64,000 nucleotides of DNA from Hymenobacter polaris (GCF_012927305.1 NZ_JABBGH010000002.1:868001-932000), one strand, 5' to 3'; positions 490 through 49,691 are shown, counted from the stretch's first letter. A program made the numbers and translations. Notes: a model not told the origin generated them from the letters alone.

Positions 490-583
490 AAGACCGTCAT
501 GCTGAGCTTGCCGAAGCATCTCTACTGCACTGCAACTGGATAATGCGGTAGAGATGCTTCGGCAAGCTCAGCATGACGGTCTT
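490..583. repeat. Family A inverted repeat (REP-like), 36-bp perfect arms
   Basis: The arms at 490-525 and 548-583 are exact reverse complements around a 22-base loop. The core TGAGCTTGCCGAAGCATC recurs at about 22.97, 26.27, 29.33 and 53.7 kb. It fills almost the whole gap between crtI and crtB and would form a very stable hairpin in the transcript. It resembles the REP-like TTCGACAAGCTCAG elements known from many bacteria; mobilisation by a RAYT transposase elsewhere is inference. Confidence 0.9.
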
Positions 584-4103: not shown

Positions 4104-4175
4104 CCGCAGATTTAGCGGATTTAACGGATTGCACAGATACGCTCGCCTGCCTCCGGCAGCGAGCTGACTACGCGA
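4104..4175 (+). repeat. Family B repeat, forward copy
   Basis: This copy starts right after the crtW stop codon with the GGATTTAACGGATT unit, then a hairpin built on CTCGCTGCC/GGCAGCGAG and an end reading GACTACGCGAA. It forms a mirrored pair with the reverse copy at 4266-4349. Confidence 0.75.
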
Positions 4176-4227
4176 ATTTCGTTGCTCAACTGTTCACAGC
4201 CCTTTGCATACAAGCTACTATTCAGCA

Positions 4228-4256
4228 AAAAGGCCACCCCAGGGTGGCCTTTTTTG
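4228..4256. terminator. Bidirectional rho-independent terminator
   Basis: A 12-bp stem of AAAAAGGCCACC and GGTGGCCTTTTT around a 4-base loop has A and T tracts on either side. It lies between the convergent crtW (+) and the HMA gene (-), so it can serve both. Confidence 0.85.
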
Positions 4257-4265
4257 TGTCTATGC

Positions 4266-4349
4266 TTCACGTTCGCGTAGTCAGCTCGCCGCCGGAGGCT
4301 GGCGAGCGTATCTGTGCAATCCGTTTAATCCGCTAAATCTGCGATTTAG
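4266..4349 (-). repeat. Family B repeat, reverse copy
   Basis: This is the reverse complement counterpart of the copy at 4104-4175, with GCGTAGTCAGCTCGCC at its outer part and AATCCGCTAAATCTGC at its gene-proximal part. The two copies flank the terminator symmetrically, and this one runs into the 3' end of the HMA gene. Confidence 0.75.
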
Positions 4350-18942: not shown

Positions 18943-19033
18943 ATGAGCAATAAACAGTGAGCAATGAGCAAGTAGGAAAATGAGCGAACGGCGGGTTAGC
19001 ACAATTGCTCATTGTTCATTGCTCATTGATAAT
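18943..19033. repeat. Family H inverted repeat (TGAGCAAT type)
   Basis: The left part AATGAGCAATAAACAGTGAG pairs imperfectly with TTGTTCATTGCTCATTGATA on the right. The element fills the gap between the ATPase gene and the first permease. Low-complexity repeats of this kind are frequent in intergenic gaps here. Confidence 0.65.
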
Positions 19034-19036
19034 TAC

Positions 19037-19762
<726 letters not shown>

Positions 19763-19794
19763 GAAGAGGAGGTTGTAAGTAATTGTTCTGGTGG

Positions 19795-19910
19795 GCGCCT
19801 CACCCCTAGCCCCTCTCCGAAAAGGAGAGGGGAACTAGCTCTAGTTTTTAATTCTAGTACTAGAAACTAGTCCCCCTCTCCTTTTCGGAGAGGGGCTAGG
19901 GGTGAGGCGC
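19795..19910. repeat. Family D2 inverted repeat, 38-bp perfect arms
   Basis: The arms at 19795-19832 and 19873-19910 are exact reverse complements. Each arm contains its own small palindrome (CCCTCTCC GAAA GGAGAGGG). The loop is A/T-rich and also self-complementary in part (ACTAGCTCTAG and CTAGTACTAG). It separates the tolC gene from the ATPase gene within one transcription unit and may attenuate or stabilise the message. Confidence 0.9.
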
Positions 19911-19920
19911 TCGTTGGCAT

Positions 19921-21450
19921 TCATTCGGCCCCTAGGGGCTGCTGGGTGGCGAAATCGAATAAGGTGAGGCTGCGCAGGCGGTAGTGGGCTACCCAGCCGG
20001 CGCGCAGGACCAGGATGTAGCCGCGGCGGGCCAGGTCTTTGGCGGCCGAGGCCAGGGTGAGGTCGGTGAGGGAGAGGCGGCCGGCCTCGTAGGTGGCGCG
20101 GCTGATGGCGTAGCGACGCTGGGCCAGCGAGTCGGCGCGGGCGGCCAGGCGCACCTGCCCGACCAGGGTAGGTAGTTGGGAGGCCTGGGTGAGCACGGTT
20201 TGCTCGAAGTTGCGCTCGTCCTGGGCTACGGCGGCCTGGGTTTGGTCGCGCAGCAGCTCGGCAGCCCGGATGGTGGCGCGGCGCCGGCCCCAGTCCATGA
20301 GCGGCAGCGAGAACGCCAGGGCCACCTGCTGTTGGTTTTGCAGGGCCAGGTAGCTGTCTACCAAGTGGGGCGCCTGGTTGACGTAGCCCAGGTTGGCGGT
20401 GAGGGTGGCCAGCAGGCCGGTGGTGCCGCGGGCCTGGGCCACGTCGCGGTCGGTTTGCAGGCGCTGGCGGGCAAAGGCCAGCACGGCGGCCCGGCGCTGG
20501 CGGGCCTGCCCTAGGGCCTCGGCGGGCACGATAACCGGGGCGGGGGCGGCTTCGGGCACGGCCAGGGCCGGTAGCGCTTCGGAGCCGGGCAGGGCGCAGT
20601 AGGTGCGCAAACTCACGGCGGCGCTTTCGGCGTCCAGCTGGGCCTGGGCCTGGGCCTGCTGGGCGTTCAGCAGGTTCAGCTCCAGCTGCACCTGGTCGCT
20701 CTGCGAGAGGCGGCCGAGGGCAAATTTTTCGCGGCCCACGCGCAGCAGCTCGGCGGCGGCTTGGGCGTTTTGGCCGGCCACGGCGGCATTCACCTGCTGC
20801 AACAACACGTCGAAATACAGCTCCGTAACGCGCTGGGCCAGGGTTTCGCGGTCCTCCAGGTACTGGCGCTGGCTTTCCTGGTAGCGCAGCGGCTCGATGC
20901 GGCGGGCCCACTTCAGGAGGTTGAAGTACCCGATGGGCTGCGTCAGGCCCAGGGTAAAGGGCTGGTTGTTGTAGCGCTTCTCGGTGCGGATGAAGTCGTC
21001 GAAGCGCTGGAGCTGCGAGCCCACCACCACTTGCCCGCCCGTCAGGCCGATGTTCTGGGTGAGGCCCACGGCCAGCAGCGAGTTGTTGTAGCGCACGGTC
21101 TGGAAGGCGGTAGTGCCGTCGGGCTGTACCACCGGCAAGATGGCGCGATTGAAGTTGGGCACCGTGCCGCTCAACCCCAGCTGTGGGCGGTAGCTGGCCT
21201 GGTAGGCGCGGTAGCTCCAGTAGCCGGCCTCGCGGGCGGCGCGGGCCTGCACGCTGGCGGCCGAGGTGGCCAGCGTCTGCTCGATGAGGCCCGGCAGGGT
21301 GAGCGTTTGGGCGGTGGTGTTGAAGGTTACTAGCAGAAGTAGGCCTAGGGTGTAGCCCCACCCCCGGCCCCTCCCCTGCGGGGGAGGGGAGCCTGACGCC
21401 GTTTGGGGCAGTGTCTTATCAGACAGGTATTTTTTGCAGAAGGAAAGCAC
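19921..21450 (-). CDS. TolC-family outer membrane efflux protein
   Basis: The 509-residue protein has a late signal-like segment (YTLGLLLLVTFNTTAQ, about residues 33-48) followed by two tandem outer-membrane-efflux domains rich in long helices and the usual alternation of alpha-barrel and beta strands. TolC-like trimers form the outer membrane duct of tripartite exporters. The only plausible start is GTG at 21450, inside the loop of an inverted repeat. As a result the left arm of that repeat is translated (GSPPPQGRGRGWG) ahead of the signal segment. No ATG lies between the arm and the signal, so either the arm is truly part of the protein or initiation uses a rarer codon. Confidence 0.88.
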   Translation of the reverse strand: MLSFCKKYLSDKTLPQTASGSPPPQGRGRGWGYTLGLLLLVTFNTTAQTLTLPGLIEQTLATSAASVQARAAREAGYWSYRAYQASYRPQLGLSGTVPNFNRAILPVVQPDGTTAFQTVRYNNSLLAVGLTQNIGLTGGQVVVGSQLQRFDDFIRTEKRYNNQPFTLGLTQPIGYFNLLKWARRIEPLRYQESQRQYLEDRETLAQRVTELYFDVLLQQVNAAVAGQNAQAAAELLRVGREKFALGRLSQSDQVQLELNLLNAQQAQAQAQLDAESAAVSLRTYCALPGSEALPALAVPEAAPAPVIVPAEALGQARQRRAAVLAFARQRLQTDRDVAQARGTTGLLATLTANLGYVNQAPHLVDSYLALQNQQQVALAFSLPLMDWGRRRATIRAAELLRDQTQAAVAQDERNFEQTVLTQASQLPTLVGQVRLAARADSLAQRRYAISRATYEAGRLSLTDLTLASAAKDLARRGYILVLRAGWVAHYRLRSLTLFDFATQQPLGAE

Positions 21451-21535
21451 GGCCTTAGTTTATAAGTCAGTCGATAGGTATTGCTTTTCGTTTGGCTCCC
21501 CTCCCCCGCAGGGGAGGGGCCGGGGGTGGGGCTAC
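21352..21535. repeat. Family D3 inverted repeat, 42-bp perfect arms, overlapping tolC
   Basis: The arms at 21352-21393 and 21494-21535 are exact reverse complements (GTAGCCCCACCCCCGGCCCC at the outer end). The loop is 100 bases. The left arm lies in the 5' coding part of tolC; the right arm reaches the stop codon of the adaptor gene. The inner flank GGGGAGCCTGACGCC also follows the left arm of the D1 element at 27.7 kb. Confidence 0.92.
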
Positions 21536-22779
21536 TCCACCCGTAGCTCGGGCACGTCCACAAATTCCTTGGTGTCCGACACAATCACCTGCTCGCCCTG
21601 GCGCAAGCCGCTGATTATTTGCACGTAGTCGGTATTGCTGTCGCCCAGGCGCACTAGGCGGCGCGTGGCCCGGCCACCAGCCAGCACGAACACCGGCTGC
21701 TCCTGGCCGCCCTGGTAGTAAGGACCGTTTTTGAGGCGCAGCACGCCGCGGTGGGCGCGGGTCAGCACAAACACGTCGGCCCGCAGGTTGGCGCGCAGGG
21801 CGGGGTGGTGGTCGTTGGTGAGGGTGGCGTAGAAGGTGACGGTGCCCTTGTCCACGGCCGGGCTGATGCTGGCGATGGTGCCGGGCAGGTCGGTGCCGGG
21901 GCCCAGGCGCACCAGCACCGCGTCGCCGGGGTGCAGCTGGTCGGCGTAGGTGTCGGCGATGGTGGCGCGCACCCGGTAGCGGCTCAGGTCGGCCACGCGG
22001 GCCAGGGCCTCGCCGGCCTGCACGGTGGTGCCCAGGTTGTCATTCACCCAGGTGAGCACGCCCGGCAGCGGGCTGCTGATGTCGGCCTGCCGCAGCTTGG
22101 CCGCCTGCTCCTGAATGCTGCGCTGCTGCACCGACACCGTAAAGCCCAGCTCGCGGCGGTCGGCGGCGCTGGCCTGGCGCTGGTTGGCGAGCTGCTGGCC
22201 GAGGCGCTGGGCTTCCAGGCGGGCGGTGCGCAGGTTCAGCTCGGCTTGGCGCACGGCTTCGGCGGTGCCGCCGCCTATCTCCAGCAGGTGCTGCTCGTCG
22301 CGCAGGGCCGACTGCAAGCTGCTCACCTTCAGGTCCTGGGCTTGCTGCTGAGCTTCCAGGTCGGTGAGAGCGCGGGCCAGGGTCAGGCGCAGCTGGTCGT
22401 TCTTGTTTTGGTTGCGCAGCTGTTCGTCGTCGAGCTTGGCCAGGGCCGAGGCCGCTAGCTCCTTGTCCAGCTCCAGGATGGGCTGGCCGGGCTGCACCCG
22501 CGCGCCCACCGCCAGCAGCACCCGCCGGATGGTGCTCTGCAGGGGGCTCGTCAGCACCGCCTCGCGGGCCGGAATGACGGTGCCGGCGGCCGTGAGGGTG
22601 GCGTCCACGTCGCCCACTTCTACCGGGGCCGTGAGGATGTCGGCACGGCGCAGGGTGGGCTGCAGCGCGCGGCGCAGCCCTAGGGCCCCGGCCGCCAGCA
22701 AAGCCAGAATGCCCAGGCCCAGCAGCCAGCGGCGCAGCTGGCGGTGGCGCAGCGTAGTAGTTGAAATGGCTCTGTCCAT
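21532..22779 (-). CDS. Periplasmic adaptor (membrane fusion protein), MacA/HlyD type
   Basis: The 415-residue protein has an N-terminal membrane anchor (LLGLGILALLAAGALGL, about residues 17-33), a biotinyl-lipoyl-like half motif (ILTAPVEVGDVDATLTAAGTV), a long coiled-coil hairpin (about residues 110-235), then lipoyl and beta-barrel domains (SSPLPGVLTWVNDNLGTTVQAGEALARV). Adaptors of this class join inner membrane ABC or RND pumps to TolC. It is the first gene of the operon, which then continues into tolC, ATPase and permeases, so it should work with the MacB-like pump. A candidate sigma-54 promoter and two palindromic sites lie upstream. Confidence 0.92.
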   Translation of the reverse strand: MDRAISTTTLRHRQLRRWLLGLGILALLAAGALGLRRALQPTLRRADILTAPVEVGDVDATLTAAGTVIPAREAVLTSPLQSTIRRVLLAVGARVQPGQPILELDKELAASALAKLDDEQLRNQNKNDQLRLTLARALTDLEAQQQAQDLKVSSLQSALRDEQHLLEIGGGTAEAVRQAELNLRTARLEAQRLGQQLANQRQASAADRRELGFTVSVQQRSIQEQAAKLRQADISSPLPGVLTWVNDNLGTTVQAGEALARVADLSRYRVRATIADTYADQLHPGDAVLVRLGPGTDLPGTIASISPAVDKGTVTFYATLTNDHHPALRANLRADVFVLTRAHRGVLRLKNGPYYQGGQEQPVFVLAGGRATRRLVRLGDSNTDYVQIISGLRQGEQVIVSDTKEFVDVPELRVE

Positions 22780-22816
22780 TAGCGGGCAGGTAGGAGGGAG
22801 GTTTCCTTTACCTAAG

Positions 22817-22831
22817 CCAAGGCCCGTGCCG
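22817..22831 (-). promoter_or_regulatory. Candidate sigma-54 promoter of the efflux operon
   Basis: On the minus strand the sequence CGGCACGGGCCTTGGC resembles the -24/-12 pattern TGGCAC-N5-TTGC, with a mismatch in the first base and TTGG in place of TTGC. It lies about 40-50 bp before the adaptor start, and the palindromes at 22897-22931 lie about 70-110 bp further upstream, the usual place for NtrC-type enhancer sites. This fits the sigma-54 regulator encoded at 11972-13354, but the match is imperfect. Confidence 0.35.
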
Positions 22832-22896
22832 TTTTTATAAATAATTGATTGTTAGAATATTAATTGTTAAATAGTGCTTGTGGCGCGGCAGAATAC

Positions 22897-22931
22897 TGTC
22901 CGGTTGCGGGCAGGGTGTCCAGAAGTGGACA
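22897..22931. promoter_or_regulatory. Two tandem palindromes TGTCC-N6-GGRCA upstream of the efflux operon
   Basis: TGTCC-GGTTGC-GGGCA at 22897-22912 and TGTCC-AGAAGT-GGACA at 22916-22931 start 19 bases apart. A site of identical geometry, TGTTC-GTTACC-GGACA, lies before the head-GIN genes at 15039-15054. Shared geometry at two promoters next to a DNA-binding regulator gene suggests that they are its binding sites. Confidence 0.5.
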
Positions 22932-22963
22932 GGAGCCTAGGGCCGGTAAAAAAGAAAAGCCAA

Positions 22964-23080
22964 AAACCAGCCGGTCAGGCTGAGCTGGCCGAAGCATCTC
23001 TACTGCGTAAGCAACCTCTGACGTTGGGATTACTTGCGCGGGAGAGAGGCTTCGGCCAGCTCAGCCTGCCCGGCTGGTTT
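22964..23080. repeat. Family A inverted repeat, diverged copy
   Basis: Left arm AACCAGCCGGTCAGGCTGAG and right arm CTCAGCCTGCCCGGCTGGTT pair with few mismatches, and the core GCTGAGCTGGCCGAAGC differs from the main form (GCTTGCCGAAGC) in both arms in a compensating way. Together with the operator sites and the leader it accounts for the 319-base gap between the adaptor and DUF4886 genes. Confidence 0.8.
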
Positions 23081-23098
23081 CAGGCTATGCCAAGGGCC

Positions 23099-24010
23099 CT
23101 AGGGCCTCCCGGCCTTTACCTGCTCCCAGGCTATTTGCTGCAGCTTTTTGGCAATCTCGGGCGCGATGCCCAGCGCGGCGGCGGCCTGCTCCTGGCGGCC
23201 TAGCTTGCGCGGGTCGTAGCCGGTTACCTCAGCCAGTAGCACGCAGGCGTTGAGGTACGAGCCGTAGCGGCTGGGATGGTAATGGTCGCGGCCCCAGAGG
23301 TCGAGCTTGCCCGCGTCGGTGCCATCGTAGGGGTTGGGGTCGGCCAGGCCCTGGCGGATGGCGCGCAGCCAGGCATCACCGGCCGGGGCCACGCCGCTAA
23401 AGCCTTTGTCTTGGGCAGCTTCCTGGTAGTAGGCGCGGTGCAAGTCGGTTTGCATCGAGTCGAGGGGCAGGCCTGAGTAGCCCTTGCCCTCGGGGTAGGT
23501 CTGGTCAGCTCGCGCCCAGGTTTCGTAGAGGTAGACTTTGGCGCGGGGGTTGGCCTCGTGCACGGCCTGCTCCAGCTTGGTGGCGTAGGTGTAGAAGCGC
23601 TCGGGCGAGCCCGTGTGGCGGGCGGGCGTCGGGCCCAGGCTGTGGTCGTGCATCACCACCGTGTTCCAGCGCGGCTGCTTGATAACGTCGAGCGCGTTGT
23701 CGTAGTGGTACTTCAGGGTTTCGCCGGTAATGACTTCCAGATGTATTTCGTAGTTGAAGCCGGCCTCATCGGTAAGCTTCTTGAAAATGCCCGGGATGCC
23801 GGCCCAAGGCCCATCCGCATGTTGGCGCGGGCTGCGCGGCCCGGTGGTATTCAGGTTCTCGTCGGTCACCAGCGCCGTGTTGTAGCCCAGCACCGGCGCA
23901 AAGGCCCCGTGCGTAAAGCTGTTGCCAATGAACAGGATAACGTTGGGCTGGGCTGGCTGGGCGAGGGCCCCTAGGGACAGGCCGGCCAGCAGAAGCGGAA
24001 GGAGGCGCAT
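23099..24010 (-). CDS. DUF4886/SGNH-like secreted protein, copy 2
   Basis: The ATG at 24010 gives 303 residues with a signal peptide (MRLLPLLLAGLSLGALAQ); the longer frame from 24085 is not needed. The core begins NVILFIGNSFTHGAF, a GNSFT block like the SGNH nucleophile elbow, and has DHYHPSRYG near the C terminus, the likely catalytic Asp/His block. DUF4886 proteins are SGNH-hydrolase-like and of unknown substrate; deacylation of a carbohydrate is a reasonable guess in this locus. It is a tandem paralogue of the next gene and closes the polysaccharide locus. Confidence 0.85.
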   Translation of the reverse strand: MRLLPLLLAGLSLGALAQPAQPNVILFIGNSFTHGAFAPVLGYNTALVTDENLNTTGPRSPRQHADGPWAGIPGIFKKLTDEAGFNYEIHLEVITGETLKYHYDNALDVIKQPRWNTVVMHDHSLGPTPARHTGSPERFYTYATKLEQAVHEANPRAKVYLYETWARADQTYPEGKGYSGLPLDSMQTDLHRAYYQEAAQDKGFSGVAPAGDAWLRAIRQGLADPNPYDGTDAGKLDLWGRDHYHPSRYGSYLNACVLLAEVTGYDPRKLGRQEQAAAALGIAPEIAKKLQQIAWEQVKAGRP

Positions 24011-24136
24011 AGGTGGGAAAGTAGCGGAAGAGTGGGCCGGATAAGATACGGCTGGCGCAAAAAAGCCGCCATTGCTGCCTTGCACCCGCGGCGGCTGTCG
24101 ATTCTTATGCAGCTGCCTGCTATTGCTACCGAGCGC

Positions 24137-25072
24137 CTAGCCCTTGCGACCGGCTTTCACCTGCTCCCACGCCACTTTTTGCAGCCGGGCGGCTACCTCG
24201 GGCGCGATGCCCAGCGCGGCGGCGGCCTGCTCCTGGCGGCCTAGCTTGCACGGGTCGTAGCCTGTAATCTCGGCCAGTAGTACGCAGGCGTTGAGGTAGG
24301 CGCCGTAGATGCTAGGATGGTAGTGGTCGGGCCCCCACAGGTCTACTTTGCCCGCGTCGGTGCCGTCGTAGGGGTTGGGGTCGGCCACGCCCTGGCGGAT
24401 GGCGCGCAGCCAGGCGTCGCCGGCCGGCGCCACGCCCGCAATCTGCTTATCCTGCGCGGCTTCGCGGTAGTAGGCGCGGTGCAGGTCGGTCTGCATCGAG
24501 TCGAGGGGCAGGCCCGAGTAGCCCTTGCCCTCGGGATAGGTTTGGTCGGCGCGGGTCCAGGTTTCGTAGAGGTACACCTGGGCCCTAGGATTGGCCTTGT
24601 GCACGGCCTGTTCCAGCTTGGTAGCGTAGGTGAAGAAGCGCGCGGGCTGGCCGCCGTGGCGGGTGGGCACCGGACCAGTGCTGTAGTCGTGCATCACCAC
24701 CGTGTTCCACTTGGGCTGCTTAATTACGGCCAGCGCGCTGTCGTAGTGGAACTGCAGCGTCTGCCCGCTGATGGCCTCCAAGTGCACCTCGTAGTTCAGC
24801 CCCGCCTCGTCGGTGAGCTTCTTGAAGATGCCTGGGATGCCGCCCCAGGGGCCCTCCTCGTGCTCATACTGGCGGCGGCGCTGCCCGCTGCGGCCCGGCC
24901 GGAAGTTCTCGTCGGTAATGGCCGCCGCGTTGTAGTTCAGCACCGGCTTGAAGGCGCCGTGAAAGAAGCTGTTGCCCACGAAGAGGATAACCGTCGGCTT
25001 AGTAGGCGGCGCGGCGGGGTGGGCGAGGGCCCCTAGGGGCAGGGCGGCGAGCAGGAGAGTGGGGAGGTTCAT
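24137..25072 (-). CDS. DUF4886/SGNH-like secreted protein, copy 1
   Basis: The 311-residue protein has a signal peptide (MNLPTLLLAALPLGALAHP) and the same blocks as its neighbour: ILFVGNSFFHGAF near residue 30, WTRADQTYPEGKGYSG in the middle and DHYHPSIYGAYLNACV near the C terminus. The two copies are similar over their full length at both protein and DNA level, so the duplication is fairly recent. GNSFFHG replaces GNSFTHG but keeps the serine. The 126-bp gap to copy 2 holds a weak hairpin (24064-24097, AGCCGCC and GGCGGCT). Substrate unknown. Confidence 0.85.
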   Translation of the reverse strand: MNLPTLLLAALPLGALAHPAAPPTKPTVILFVGNSFFHGAFKPVLNYNAAAITDENFRPGRSGQRRRQYEHEEGPWGGIPGIFKKLTDEAGLNYEVHLEAISGQTLQFHYDSALAVIKQPKWNTVVMHDYSTGPVPTRHGGQPARFFTYATKLEQAVHKANPRAQVYLYETWTRADQTYPEGKGYSGLPLDSMQTDLHRAYYREAAQDKQIAGVAPAGDAWLRAIRQGVADPNPYDGTDAGKVDLWGPDHYHPSIYGAYLNACVLLAEITGYDPCKLGRQEQAAAALGIAPEVAARLQKVAWEQVKAGRKG

Positions 25073-25088
25073 AGGAGTTGTTCAACGG

Positions 25089-25185
25089 ATTTCCCGCAGA
25101 GGGCGCAGTGTTTGCGCAGAAGACGCAGAGGCTAACGTCCGCGCTCTGCGTCTTCTGCGCAAACACTGCGCCCTCTGCGGGAAAT
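25089..25185. repeat. Family C1 inverted repeat, 42-bp perfect arms
   Basis: The arms at 25089-25130 and 25144-25185 are exact reverse complements around a 13-base loop. Arm sequence features GCAGAAGACGCAGAG. A shorter relative lies at 50933-51014 before murD. It occupies most of the gap between the esterase and the first DUF4886 gene. Confidence 0.93.
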
Positions 25186-25201
25186 CTACCTGTTTAGTTG
25201 G

Positions 25202-26251
25202 CTACTCAAAATCCAGATGCTTATTAAAGAACGGCAGCACATGCTGATACACCCGCCCGGTGGGCCCCATGATGCGGCTGCCGTGGGTGCCCTGGTACTC
25301 CTCGGCCGTGTGCGGCAGGCCGAATACCGTGAGCAAGTTGCTGAACTGGTGGCAGGTAGGCGGAATGTGCTTCACCTCGTCCTGGGCGCCCCAGTCGAAG
25401 GCGAAGCCGCGCAGCTGGCGCAGGGCAGCGGCGTGGGTGGGCAGGGTGTAGAGGGGCGTCTGGGGCACGCTGCGGGCCAGCACGGCATCGCGCCGGGCCA
25501 GGCTGTCGGCGCCGAGCGAGCCGGGCAGGTCGGCGCCGAAGGGCTTAGCGGCGGGGTCGGGCGTGAAGGCGCGGGCGCCCGAAATGACGGACAGCACGGC
25601 GTGGTTGCCCAGTACGTCGGCCATGCTGCGGGCCCGGAGCGCCGCCCCTAGGCCCGGCCCCGGCGTGTAGCTGGGGTGCGGGCCCAGCAGCGCCGGGCTC
25701 AGGGCGTAGGCGGCCGCCCAGGTGCCGGGGTAGGCCAGGGCCAGGCGCACGGTGCCGCCGCCGCCCATCGAGTGGCCGGCCAGGCCGCGGCTGCCGGGCT
25801 TGGCCAGCGTGCGGAAGTTCTTGTCGATAAATGCCACCAACTCGCGGGCCGTGAAGTCGCCCCAGGGTCCGTTGGTGGCCGAGTTAACGTACCAGCTACC
25901 GCCAAAGCGCGTCTGCTCGTCGGGCACCACCATAATGAAGGGCCGGATTTGCCCGGCGGCGATGGCCTGGTCGAGCAGCGCCTTCATGCCGTCCTGGTTG
26001 AAAATCAGGCTGTCATTCCACGTAAAGCCGTGCAGAAAGTACACCACCGGGTAGCGCTTGCCGGGGCTGGCGTCGTAGCCGGCCGGCAGGTACACGCTCA
26101 CCCGGCGCCTAGGGTTCTCGCCGCCGGGGTTGCCGCGCAGCAGCTTCGAGTCGAGGTGCGTGACGACGAGCCGCCCGGCCGCCGGGGCCGTTTGGGCGCG
26201 GGCGGGGCCTAGGGCGGCGAGGAGCAGCAGGAGGCAGAATAGACGGCGCAC
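25202..26251 (-). CDS. Secreted alpha/beta hydrolase, esterase family
   Basis: The 349-residue protein (GTG start at 26251) has a signal peptide ending near ARAQ and an alpha/beta hydrolase fold with YFLHGF forming the oxyanion region near residue 70, the nucleophile elbow GHSMGGGG near residue 160 and a late histidine in GTHGS. It belongs to the esterase D/putative feruloyl esterase group, which removes acyl or aromatic ester groups from polysaccharides. Position among GH5 and GH30 genes supports a role in de-esterifying the same substrate. Confidence 0.87.
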   Translation of the reverse strand: MRRLFCLLLLLAALGPARAQTAPAAGRLVVTHLDSKLLRGNPGGENPRRRVSVYLPAGYDASPGKRYPVVYFLHGFTWNDSLIFNQDGMKALLDQAIAAGQIRPFIMVVPDEQTRFGGSWYVNSATNGPWGDFTARELVAFIDKNFRTLAKPGSRGLAGHSMGGGGTVRLALAYPGTWAAAYALSPALLGPHPSYTPGPGLGAALRARSMADVLGNHAVLSVISGARAFTPDPAAKPFGADLPGSLGADSLARRDAVLARSVPQTPLYTLPTHAAALRQLRGFAFDWGAQDEVKHIPPTCHQFSNLLTVFGLPHTAEEYQGTHGSRIMGPTGRVYQHVLPFFNKHLDFE

Positions 26252-26268
26252 AGATTAGCAGTTGAAAA

Positions 26269-26379
26269 AAAGGCGGTCATGCTGAGCTTGCCGAAGCATC
26301 TCTACCGCGCAAGTAGAACCAATGTCAAGAGTTAGTTACGCAGTAGAGATGCTTCGGCAAGCTCAGCATGACCGCCTTT
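26269..26379. repeat. Family A inverted repeat, 37-bp perfect arms
   Basis: The arms at 26269-26305 and 26343-26379 are exact reverse complements with core TGAGCTTGCCGAAGCATC. The flanking bases GGCGGTC and GACCGCC differ from the copy at 490-583, but are again complementary between the arms. Confidence 0.92.
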
Positions 26380-26392
26380 CTTGATTTTTATA

Positions 26393-27691
26393 TTACCGCT
26401 TCAATTCCGCTCCTAGGGCCTTCACCACGCCTTCGTTGGGCACGCAGTTCTTAAACTTGATGTCTTCCAGAATCACCGGTAGGTCGGCGGCACTTTTTAC
26501 GTCCACCAGGTAGGGGGGCTTGATGCGCAGCAGCGAGGCAATGGGCTGGTCGGAGAAGCGCTTGTAAGTCCAGTTGCACCAGCCGATGCCGGCGGCGTTG
26601 AGGTTGCGGGCGGCCTCGCCCATCCACTCGGGCGAGTTCTCGCCGGTTTCGCCCACCCACACCGGCACCTGCTGTGCCTGCCGGAAAGCCACCAAGTTGC
26701 CGATGGCGCCGAGCTGGTTGGCGTCGGGGTTGCTGGCATCGGGCGCGTTGCTGAGCGGGTACTTGGGCAGGATGCTGTAGCGGTGCGAGTTGTACACCAG
26801 GTTCTGGTGGTGCGTGAAGCTACTGGGCAGCAGCTCGTTGTAGTTGTTGCCGAAGCCGTTGCCTTCCAGCAGCAGCAGGTGCTCGTCGCCCTGGGCCCGC
26901 ACGGTGTTGATGAGCCGCTCCAGCATGGTGTGGATGGCCGCGTTGCCGCCGGGCACGTTGTTGGGCTCGTTCACGAGGTCATACATGGCAATGCGGCCGT
27001 CGTTTTTGTAGCGCTTCGCCAGCGTGGCCCACAGCTCATTGGTGATGGTCTGGTACACCGGCTCGTTCCAGAAGTCGTTGGGCTGCAGCGCGTCGGCAAT
27101 GTTGGTATCGGTGCCCTGGGCGCCGGGCGCGGCGTGCAAATCCAGCACTACGTAGAGCTTATTGGCCGCGCACCACCCTAGGGTCTGGTCGATGAGCCGG
27201 ATGGCGTCGAGCTGCTCGGGCTTCCGAAACAGCTCGCCCTGCTGCTGCCACTCGCGCAGCTTGGCCACGTAGTCGGCGTAGGGCACCGTGCCCTTGATGA
27301 CCCCGTTGCGCACCGCCCGCTGCTGGGCGGTCAGAAACAGCTCGTAGTGCAGTGGCAGGCGCACGCAGTTGAAGCCCTGCTGCGCGATGTAGTCGATGTC
27401 GGCCTTGGTGATGAAAGTGGCGCGCCACTGCTGGTAGAACTTCTCCACCGCCGCCTCGCTCAGGCCCGCGCCGTAGAGCACCTTCTTCACCGAGCCCTGG
27501 GTGCCACCGTAGCCGGGCTTCATCATGTAGCCCTCTTGCAGCAGCCAGCCGCCCACGTTCATGCCCTGCAGCAGCACGTCGCGGTGCTGGGCATCCACGA
27601 TTTTGGGGCCTTCGGCGCGCAGCAGCGGGGCGGTGGTGGTTTGGGCCAGGGCGGGGAGGGCGGCGAGGAAAAGGAACGGGAGGAGTTTCAT
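26393..27691 (-). CDS. Glycoside hydrolase family 5 (cellulase-like), secreted
   Basis: The 432-residue protein has a short signal peptide (KLLPFLFLAALPALAQ) and a (beta/alpha)8 barrel with GH5 features: MNVGGWLLQEGYM near the N terminus, LVNEPNN with the acid/base glutamate around residue 240 and VGETGENSPEW with the nucleophile glutamate around residue 350. GH5 enzymes cleave beta-linked glucans, mannans or related chains with retention. No carbohydrate-binding module or lipobox is visible, so it is probably periplasmic or secreted. Next to three GH30 genes, a beta-glucan substrate is likely. Confidence 0.92.
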   Translation of the reverse strand: MKLLPFLFLAALPALAQTTTAPLLRAEGPKIVDAQHRDVLLQGMNVGGWLLQEGYMMKPGYGGTQGSVKKVLYGAGLSEAAVEKFYQQWRATFITKADIDYIAQQGFNCVRLPLHYELFLTAQQRAVRNGVIKGTVPYADYVAKLREWQQQGELFRKPEQLDAIRLIDQTLGWCAANKLYVVLDLHAAPGAQGTDTNIADALQPNDFWNEPVYQTITNELWATLAKRYKNDGRIAMYDLVNEPNNVPGGNAAIHTMLERLINTVRAQGDEHLLLLEGNGFGNNYNELLPSSFTHHQNLVYNSHRYSILPKYPLSNAPDASNPDANQLGAIGNLVAFRQAQQVPVWVGETGENSPEWMGEAARNLNAAGIGWCNWTYKRFSDQPIASLLRIKPPYLVDVKSAADLPVILEDIKFKNCVPNEGVVKALGAELKR

Positions 27692-27715
27692 GGGAAAAGT
27701 CTTGTTCTGACGAAA

Positions 27716-27829
27716 GGCCTCACCCCCCGGCCCCCTCTCCTTCAGAGAGGGGGAGCCTGACGCCTACCAACGTTAGGCTTGTGCTGTGGCTCCCCCTCTC
27801 TGAAGGAGAGGGGGCCGGGGGGTGAGGCC
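27716..27829. repeat. Family D1 inverted repeat, 42-bp perfect arms
   Basis: The arms at 27716-27757 and 27788-27829 are exact reverse complements (GGCCTCACCCCCCGGCCCCC at the outer end) with a 30-base loop. It lies between the first GH30 and the GH5 gene. D1, D2 and D3 share the pattern C-rich block, CCCTCTCC or CCCTCCCC, then a purine mirror, but are not simple copies of each other. Confidence 0.92.
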
Positions 27830-27837
27830 CCTCATTG

Positions 27838-29292
27838 CTAGTTAACCACATACGTGGCCATGGAGTGGGCGGGGCTGGTGGTGGCCACGGCCTGGCCCTT
27901 TATCCAGAGCTGAAACTCCTGGGGCTGGTCGCCGCGGTTCATCACCACCACGGCCAGCTTGCCGTCGGTGTTCTGGAAGGCGGTGGCTTGCAGCCAGTCG
28001 CGGTTGGTGCTCACGGCCACGCGCTTGGCGCCGGGGCGGATAAACTTCGAGAAGTGCCCGATGTAGTAGTAGGCGTTGGTATAAATCAGCTCGCCGGTGC
28101 GCAGGTCGGCGTGCACCGGGGCAAAGCAGAAGTTGCCCACGTGGTTGGGGCCGCCCTGCTCGTCGAGCAGGATGTTCCAGTCGGTCCAGCCCGCCGTGCC
28201 GGCGTTGAAGTCATTAATCATCGAGTAGCCGTAGCGCTCGCCCAGGCGCCACTCCTTCACTTGGTCGAGCTTGAAGTTCTCGACGCAGCCCTCGGTGAAG
28301 AACAGCTGCTTATCGGGATACATCTCGTGCACGCGCGCCACGTTGCCAAACAGCATGCCGCTGCCGGTCCAGGTTTCGTACCAGTGGTAGCCCAGGCCCC
28401 AGAGGTACTTGGCGCTCTCGGGGTCGTCGAACACGGCGCTGGCCCGCTGCTGCACCAGGTCGCGGTTGTGGTCCCAGGCCATGAGCTTCTTATCGCTCAG
28501 CCCGTTTTTCTGCAGCGTGGGCCCTAGGAAACCCTTCACGAAGTCGCGCTCCTCCTCGGCCGTGTACACGCACGACTCCCACTTCTGGGTGGCCATCTCT
28601 TCGTTTTGCACTGTGAGGCCCCACACCGGCACGCCTAGCCTCTCGTAGGCCTGCACAAACTTCACGAAGTGCTCGGCCCAGGCCTGGCGGTACTCGGGCA
28701 GCAGGTGGCCGCCGTGCAGCAGGTCGTGGTTGGTTTTCATCCAGGCCGGGGGCGTCCAGGGGCTGGCAAAGAGCGTGAGCTGGCCGCCCGCCGCCGCCGT
28801 GGCCTGCTTGATGAGCGGCAGCTTGTACTTCTCGTCGTGCTTCACGCTGAACGACTTAAGACTCTTGTCGTTGTCCTTCACATACGTGTAGCTGTCGCTC
28901 GAAAAGTCGCAGCTGCCGATGTTGGTGCGGGCCAGCGTGTAGCCGATGCCGGCCGTAGGGCTGTAGTAGGCTTGCAGCAACTCCTGCTGCTTGGCCTTGG
29001 GCAGCTTGGCAAACACCTCGGCCGAGGCATCCGTCAGCGCCCCCCCGATGCCCACCAGCGTCTGAAACTGGCGCTCGGGGTTCACGAATACGCACACCTG
29101 GGTTTCCACCGGCTGGCCCACTTCCTTGAACGGGAGGGCGCCGCCGGCCGCCAGGCGCTGGTCGGTGCCCTGGGCGGTGGTGTACACCTGGGCCGATTTG
29201 CCGGCGGCCGAGTAGGTGGTTTGGGCCGCGGCCGGCTGGGCGAGCCCTAAGGCCGCTAGCAGCCCTAGGGCGGGTAAAAAATGCTTGGTCAT
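27838..29292 (-). CDS. Glycoside hydrolase family 30, enzyme 1
   Basis: The ATG at 29292 gives 484 residues with a signal peptide (HFLPALGLLAALGLAQPAAAQ); a longer frame from 29361 would read the family A repeat. The (beta/alpha)8 catalytic domain has the acid/base glutamate in TVQNEEM (about residue 229) and the nucleophile in FFTEGCVE (about 333), and the C-terminal beta domain ends near residue 480. GH30 members include beta-glucosylceramidases, endo-beta-1,6-glucanases and xylanases. This copy is more distant from the other two in the locus, so it may act on another linkage or chain length. Confidence 0.9.
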   Translation of the reverse strand: MTKHFLPALGLLAALGLAQPAAAQTTYSAAGKSAQVYTTAQGTDQRLAAGGALPFKEVGQPVETQVCVFVNPERQFQTLVGIGGALTDASAEVFAKLPKAKQQELLQAYYSPTAGIGYTLARTNIGSCDFSSDSYTYVKDNDKSLKSFSVKHDEKYKLPLIKQATAAAGGQLTLFASPWTPPAWMKTNHDLLHGGHLLPEYRQAWAEHFVKFVQAYERLGVPVWGLTVQNEEMATQKWESCVYTAEEERDFVKGFLGPTLQKNGLSDKKLMAWDHNRDLVQQRASAVFDDPESAKYLWGLGYHWYETWTGSGMLFGNVARVHEMYPDKQLFFTEGCVENFKLDQVKEWRLGERYGYSMINDFNAGTAGWTDWNILLDEQGGPNHVGNFCFAPVHADLRTGELIYTNAYYYIGHFSKFIRPGAKRVAVSTNRDWLQATAFQNTDGKLAVVVMNRGDQPQEFQLWIKGQAVATTSPAHSMATYVVN

Positions 29293-29331
29293 GAAAAGAA
29301 GAGGGGGGTGGGAAAAGTGGTTAGGTGTAAC

Positions 29332-29440
29332 AAGAACGTCATGCTGAGCTTGCCGAAGCATCTCTAGCGCGTAAGTGACTCCTGACGTTAGGATTACCTA
29401 CGCGGTAGAGATGCTTCGACAAGCTCAGCATGACGTTCTT
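29332..29440. repeat. Family A inverted repeat, 35-bp arms with one mismatch
   Basis: Arms at 29332-29366 and 29406-29440 pair with a single mismatch (TTGCCGAAGC against GCTTCGACAA). The right arm therefore contains TTCGACAAGCTCAG, the widespread REP-like form. The loop matches that of the 22.97 kb copy (CTGACGTTAGGATTAC). Confidence 0.9.
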
Positions 29441-49600: not shown

Positions 49601-49691
49601 TGTCAGTGCGAGCGCAGCGAAGCAATCGCATCAGCACGATACCCGAACGATTACCGCCCGGTGCGATTACTTCGCTGCGCTCGCACTGACA
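49601..49691. repeat. Family E inverted repeat (TGCGAGCGCAGCGAAGCAAT type)
   Basis: Arms at 49601-49630 and 49662-49691 pair over 30 bases with one mismatch. It fills the gap between murE and mraY. The arm TGTCAGTGCGAGCGCAGCGA belongs to a repeat type I recall as widespread in bacteria; only one copy is in this window. Confidence 0.88.

Follow-up and report, generated by a model that had tools for sequence, protein, structure and literature searches.

Template switching between arms probably maintains long inverted repeats in intergenic DNA of Hymenobacter

Results

Inverted repeats in the window

The window, meaning the whole stretch of DNA analysed, comprises 64,000 nucleotides (G000:C2:868001-932000) of a 5.59 Mb Hymenobacter genome. 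The genes near the repeats encode an ABC transporter, an OEP efflux protein, a HlyD-type protein, two DUF4886 paralogues, an esterase, a GH5 cellulase and a GH30 enzyme. All of the repeats are intergenic except D3, which overlaps the predicted 5' end of one open reading frame (ORF). The elements are as follows, with positions counted from the first letter of the window and no strand assigned to any of them:

490..583, family A dimer; arms 40 nt with 1 mismatch, loop 14
4105..4343, family F inverted repeat of CGCAGATTTAGCGGATTTAACGGATT type; arms 72 nt with 3 mismatches, loop 95
19795..19910 (arms 19795-19838 and 19867-19910), D2, family D dimer; arms 44 nt with 1 mismatch, loop 28
21352..21535 (arms 21352-21393 and 21494-21535), D3, family D dimer in the OEP–HlyD-type gap; perfect arms 42/42, loop 100
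22964..23080, family A dimer; arms 48 nt with 5 mismatches, loop 21
25088..25186 (arms 25088-25130 and 25144-25186), C1, in the DUF4886–esterase gap; perfect 43-nt arms, loop 13
26269..26379, family A (CGTC-REP-like) dimer in the esterase–GH5 gap; arms 41 nt with 1 mismatch, loop 29
27716..27829 (arms 27716-27757 and 27788-27829), D1, family D dimer in the GH5 cellulase–GH30 gap; perfect arms 42/42, loop 30
29332..29440, family A dimer; arms 42 nt with 2 mismatches, loop 25
49601..49691, family E inverted repeat of TGCGAGCGCAGCGAAGCAATCGC type; arms 30 nt with 1 mismatch, loop 31

The family A dimer at 26269..26379 is bordered by an A-run on its left and by T-rich sequence on its right. In the OEP ORF, the GTG start (21450) lies inside the D3 loop, involving the span 21352-21450 of the element, and the left arm of D3 would be translated upstream of a signal-peptide-like stretch; the real start of the gene may be elsewhere. 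The two DUF4886 paralogues sit side by side (23099-25072) and are probably a tandem duplication.

The initial annotation had described these repeats as unrelated in sequence but alike in geometry. The coordinates confirm that the arms of D1 and D3 are perfect and exactly 42 nt long. The arms of C1, also given as 42 nt, are perfect over 43 nt, and those of the family A copies in the window measure 40-48 nt with 1-5 mismatches rather than 35-37 nt. In D2, the reported 38 matched bases do come first, but the arm continues to 44 nt after a single mismatch. Nor are the repeats all unrelated, as D1, D2 and D3 belong to one family.

Repeat families and their distribution

Genome figures were obtained from a 1.22 Mb (1.224 Mb) sample representing 22% of the genome. 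The elements fall into several unrelated families of dispersed, non-autonomous repeats between genes, most of them being REP-like dimers. The dimeric arrangement, two inverted REP-like units around a short spacer, is seen in 81 family A and 44 family D elements.

Family A (CGTCATGCTGAGCTTGCCGAAGCATCTC) has about 570-575 single-unit matches in the genome. It was found in 61 of the 61 Hymenobacter genomes searched, a count that includes the present genome, which holds the most copies. Its units start with CGTC or GGTC followed by ATGC, and pairing of ATGCT with AGCAT is visible, with the inner stem mismatched in the commonest core. CGTC-REPs as described (PMC3733652) have a unit with CGTC (or TGTC, CCTC) as a tag at one end, a stem of 8-9 bp and a loop of 4-5 nt; the GGTC start is a variant that is not among these listed tags. 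Family D has 33 matches in the genome to one form of its unit. It is widespread in Hymenobacter and rare in the rest of the phylum, and in a search of public genomes the matches listed comprised Hymenobacter records and a single Hymenobacteraceae metagenome-assembled genome. No consistent GTAG tag was found at the unit end of families A and D. Families C, E and F are smaller, with the C1 arm having two partial relatives in the genome sample, and some other repeats are unique or of low complexity.

A perfect 88-bp palindrome with zero loop is present elsewhere in the genome (L027:9227-9314; G000:C1:89227-89314), and another zero-loop palindrome is common to two congeners, G020 and G005, its differences being mostly mirrored. 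The short palindrome CCTAGG, or CCCTAGGG, is highly iterated: 1667 copies of CCTAGG occur in 1.22 Mb (1.36 per kb), where composition predicts 410, and of 16 copies checked in one stretch (e.g. 19001-29400) 13 fall within genes. Its density is 0.04-0.07 per kb in four congeners and above 2 per kb in G021 and G033 (8-kb blocks), while G012 and G053 iterate GGGGCCCC in its place. This iteration resembles the HIP1 phenomenon of cyanobacteria.

Abundance and arm length

When arms of 20 nt or longer and loops of up to 300 nt are counted, the 1.224 Mb sample contains 195 inverted repeats, 182 of which are at least 90% identical between arms; order-3 Markov sequence of the same length yields one at that identity. 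Inverted repeats are far above chance level. Perfect arms of at least 30 nt are found in 55 repeats. Loss of SbcCD was rejected as the cause of this abundance, since both SbcC and SbcD are found in the genome.

Arm length varies broadly. Among repeats whose arms reach 25 nt or more at 95% identity or better (n = 134), the median is 40 nt, with quartiles of 34-46 and a 5-95% range of 28-59, and arm length is uncorrelated with loop length (Spearman 0.03, P = 0.74). Arms of exactly 42 nt occur in only 8 of the 134. The family D unit, CTCACCCC..CCTCTCC..GAGAGGGGGAGCC, spans 37-43 nt, and D1, D2 and D3 are similar in length because they are all of one family, their length being that of the unit. 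The 42-nt length common to repeats in the window is a coincidence.

A fixed arm length was therefore rejected, the genome sample having the kind of broad distribution that the initial annotation had itself set against its proposal. A process that measures arm length would give arms of 38-42 nt whatever their sequence. Nothing beyond the agreement of D1, D3 and C1 in the window speaks for such a process, and C1 is in fact 43 nt, the length of D arms is explained by their unit, and 42-nt arms are a small minority; we consider its existence exceedingly improbable. The suggested length-measuring transposase is not supported either, and in addition none of the RAYT (REP-associated transposase) loci described below is flanked by family A or D.

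Arms resemble each other within elements

In family A (n = 81 dimers), the arm-to-arm core distance is 0.019 within elements and 0.078 between them, and the lowest value among 2000 random pairings of arms was 0.061. Among the 33 elements with a left core outside the two commonest forms, the right core is identical in 24. The match also extends beyond the core. Outward from it, the exact match averages 7.2 nt (1.5 nt when permuted), is at least 12 nt long in 17% of cases (0.2% when permuted) and reaches up to 35 nt, into sequence outside the unit. A family A arm is thus a core plus an outward extension of variable length. Family D behaves likewise (n = 44 dimers), with an arm distance of 0.048 within elements versus 0.134 between elements and a lowest permuted value of 0.109.

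Short loops are associated with more frequent identity of arm cores in family A (P = 0.008). The effect is gone when all families are pooled (Spearman 0.02), and loop length was rejected as a general predictor of arm identity, as it applies to family A only.

The arm of D1 is identical over 41-42 nt to those of two other family D elements in the genome (L043:4711-4835 and L038:2392-2542), whereas the loops of the three (27716-27829 for D1) are largely unrelated. Arms therefore seem to have been spread or homogenised between loci without their loops, and for such elements copying within the element is by itself an insufficient explanation.

Mirrored changes and loop inversion at orthologous sites

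D3 is common to at least three congeners (G051, G043 and G089), and D3 together with a neighbouring repeat is present in species with roughly 80-88% gene identity. The loops are alignable but diverged, and the arms in the present genome match at 42/42 positions. Species differ in the arm variant that they carry, and a variant tends to occur in both arms of an element, as with CCCCTCCCC..GGGGAGGGG here and CCCCCTCTCC..GGAGAGGGGG in G051; private insertions are also present in some of the right arms from other species. Arm identity in D3, an element shared across species with diverged loops, is thus not simply a matter of recency. The initial annotation had offered recent formation or continuing correction as the meaning of perfect arms. 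A recent origin may apply to D1, as its arm recurs unchanged in two other elements, but does not suit D3, which is found in three or more other species. Correction between arms, with template switching as a candidate process, is well supported by the mirrored substitutions, mirrored indels and loop inversions found at orthologous sites.

Indels are carried in both arms as well. The esterase–GH5 gap of five species holds a family A element whose loops can be aligned. Of these species, G019 carries a 20-nt insertion in its right arm alone, G082 carries it in both arms and the other three lack it, the direction, gain or loss, not being fixed by a tree. At the D1 gap, both arms of a D element in G112 contain an insert of ~26 nt, and an element common to G114 and G102 has mirrored arm differences.

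Two close pairs of genomes were compared by scoring sites that are paired in one species. Between G020 and G005 (94% identical), there are 25 mirrored changes, 2 double non-mirrored changes and 69 single changes, with ~1.7 mirrored changes expected under independence. Between G012 and G053 (about 89%), the corresponding counts are 10, 0 and 17, with 0.6 expected. Both pairs together thus give 35 mirrored versus 2 non-mirrored double changes, where about 2 mirrored changes are expected. Single-arm changes outnumber mirrored ones in each pair, indicating that correction is not immediate.

Some of the changes involve blocks of sequence. At G012 105672, a block of three adjacent bases (ATT/GGC) is changed in each arm around an identical 23-nt loop, and at about 156.9 kb in the G012/G053 comparison a 10-nt indel is mirrored in both arms. 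In three dimers, the loop is inverted between orthologues. One family A dimer in G012 has a presence/absence site. Among the very few empty sites examined, which could show whether arm extensions came from native flanking DNA, the clearest has no trace of the extension. It also has no obvious target-site duplication of the kind that, with conserved terminal repeats, marks miniature inverted-repeat transposable elements (MITEs) of DDE transposons.

Discussion

How the arms are kept identical

Block transfer of changes between arms and inversion of the spacer are marks of template switching, and both were found. When it occurs between the arms of inverted repeats, template switching is reported both to homogenise them and to invert their spacer (PMC8604942), quasipalindromes in E. 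coli are made perfect or more perfect by it (PMC7202029), and the maintenance of RNA stems by the same route has been argued (PMC8794818). With arm homogenisation and loop inversion both observed, template switching during replication probably maintains the arms. We consider it likely that this process keeps them identical and sometimes lengthens them, with no enzyme measuring their length. The nascent strand would fold back or cross to the other strand, and one arm would then be copied into the other, homogenising the two. Such copying would carry indels across and would occasionally flip the loop, and arm length would equal the unit length of the family plus the distance that copying ran outward.

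Both signatures would also follow from RecA-dependent recombination or gene conversion between arms, which would likewise homogenise arms and flip loops. For homologous recombination, mismatched arms of 25-45 nt and loops below 50 nt are short, and this counts against it; we judge it unlikely, and replication template switching rather than recombination appears to be the cause. Mirrored point changes by themselves could instead reflect selection on hairpins, in which ordinary compensatory mutations preserve the pairing of a transcribed terminator or mRNA 3' stabiliser and neither arm is copied into the other. Family A shows several features that such selection would explain. Its dimers are rare in divergent gaps (3/94 versus 138/648 gaps, P = 4e-6, gene calls following a simple longest-ORF rule), their arm ends bear an A-run or a T-run in 62 of 94 cases, and mirrored changes also occur in short terminator-like stems (G020 188750). 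Independent hits, however, would not be expected to produce mirrored indels of 10, 20 and 26 nt or three-base blocks around an unchanged loop, and selection for pairing does not invert loops. Moreover, D dimers mostly lack T-runs (A- or T-runs in 1 of 13) and their arms match anyway. As a sole explanation, hairpin selection is very unlikely. It is likely a second factor for family A, whose pattern resembles that of bidirectional terminators, and we infer that many family A copies are in addition retained as two-way transcription terminators or 3'-end hairpins. A consensus terminator scan of the window region, covering loops of 3-8 nt only, did not pick out the long hairpins and gave no clear excess over shuffles.

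A RAYT-type HUH transposase could also account for matching arms if it makes and spreads fresh perfect hairpins, so that the arms agree through recent insertion. The genome has no match to the PF01797 profile; PF04986 has none here, but as it has none in any control genome either, that result carries no information. The NF047646 profile identifies two RAYT-like genes (L179 and L180), both below the curated cut-off of the model. L180 has HUH and YxxxN motifs and lies between repeats of the GTAG-tagged GTAGAGACGC type; L179 is without a clear tyrosine motif and without flanking repeats. Many of 20 RAYT loci in congeners likewise adjoin cognate inverted repeats, several of them GTAG-tagged. The presence/absence site of the family A dimer in G012 would suit such mobility, as would the median of 80.5 family A copies in genomes with a PF01797 match versus 39 in those without (P = 0.018), a comparison that probably misses some RAYTs by resting on that profile. 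Against this, families A and D flank none of the 22 RAYT loci (2 in this genome and 20 in congeners), which places them outside the RAYT/REPIN system of the genus as far as tested. The genome richest in family A, the present one with about 575 copies, is also one without a PF01797 match, and orthologous D3 and family A elements are old, yet their arms match and their differences are mirrored. This explanation thus seems quite unlikely. Several RAYT-repeat pairs are present in the genus (L159-L178, in congeners), with the repeats GTAGCGCGRACT, GTAGGGTGCGGGGC, GGTAAGCTTTAGCTT and CTGGCGCGAGTTT; these distinct pairs within one genus are useful for matching transposase with repeat.

Turnover at intergenic gaps

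Orthologous gaps do not always hold the same repeat. The D1 gap (27691-27838) contains a D element here and in G019, family A in G014, G040, G047 and G034, a GTAGAGACGC repeat in G065 and GTAGCGYGGACT repeats in G005 and G024. In G051 and G089, GTAG-type repeats occupy the D2 gap (19762-19921). Among these orthologous gaps, nested repeats were seen in G051. As a lead from these sequence comparisons, one gap may often be occupied by different repeat families in different Hymenobacter species.

A wider and tentative reading, which we regard as possible but rather doubtful, is that replication template switching in Hymenobacter is strong enough to write new hairpins, as long perfect inverted repeats, from many kinds of intergenic sequence, to extend them outward and to let families replace one another at gaps that retain a hairpin. 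If true, a mutational process would renew the hairpins at gene ends across the genus.

How long stems keep perfect pairing through time is an old question, and the genus offers a natural series at orthologous gaps in which one-arm changes, both-arm changes and flipped loops can be followed. Ordinary genome comparison can thereby be used to measure how often template switching occurs and how long its tracts are. A caution also follows, in that mirrored changes in bacterial hairpins alone are not proof of selection on RNA structure.

Comparison with known systems

REP-like dimers are a known kind of element and the mutational process that probably maintains them is known too; it is seen unusually clearly here. 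The elements are like REPINs (Bertels and Rainey 2011, PMC3116915) in consisting of two REP units that face each other across a variable spacer and form one long hairpin, and compensatory changes across the hairpin have been noted in REPINs (PMC3116915). In contrast to REPIN/RAYT systems, families A and D lack a RAYT partner at the 22 loci, whereas the GTAG families of the genus have one.

CGTC-tagged REPs have been reported in Bacteroidetes (Di Nocera et al. 2013, PMC3733652). By the features given there, families A and E are similar: their units begin with CGTCATGC.. or GTCATTGC.., have AT at the base of the stem, form facing dimers, and lie between co-directional and convergent genes without an associated transposase, a point covered here by the 22 RAYT loci, none of which is flanked by family A. 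That paper describes heterodimers as predominant in several CGTC families, and the present elements differ in that most have two identical arms, with the match extending past the unit.

With the template-switch systems described previously (PMC8604942, PMC7202029, PMC8794818), the repeats share arm homogenisation, multi-base changes and spacer inversion. They differ in having long arms (25-70 nt), in being dispersed bacterial intergenic repeats that are compared across one genus, and in the transfer of indels of 10-26 nt between arms. Evidence that one arm is copied into the other comes here from comparison between species and is unusually direct.
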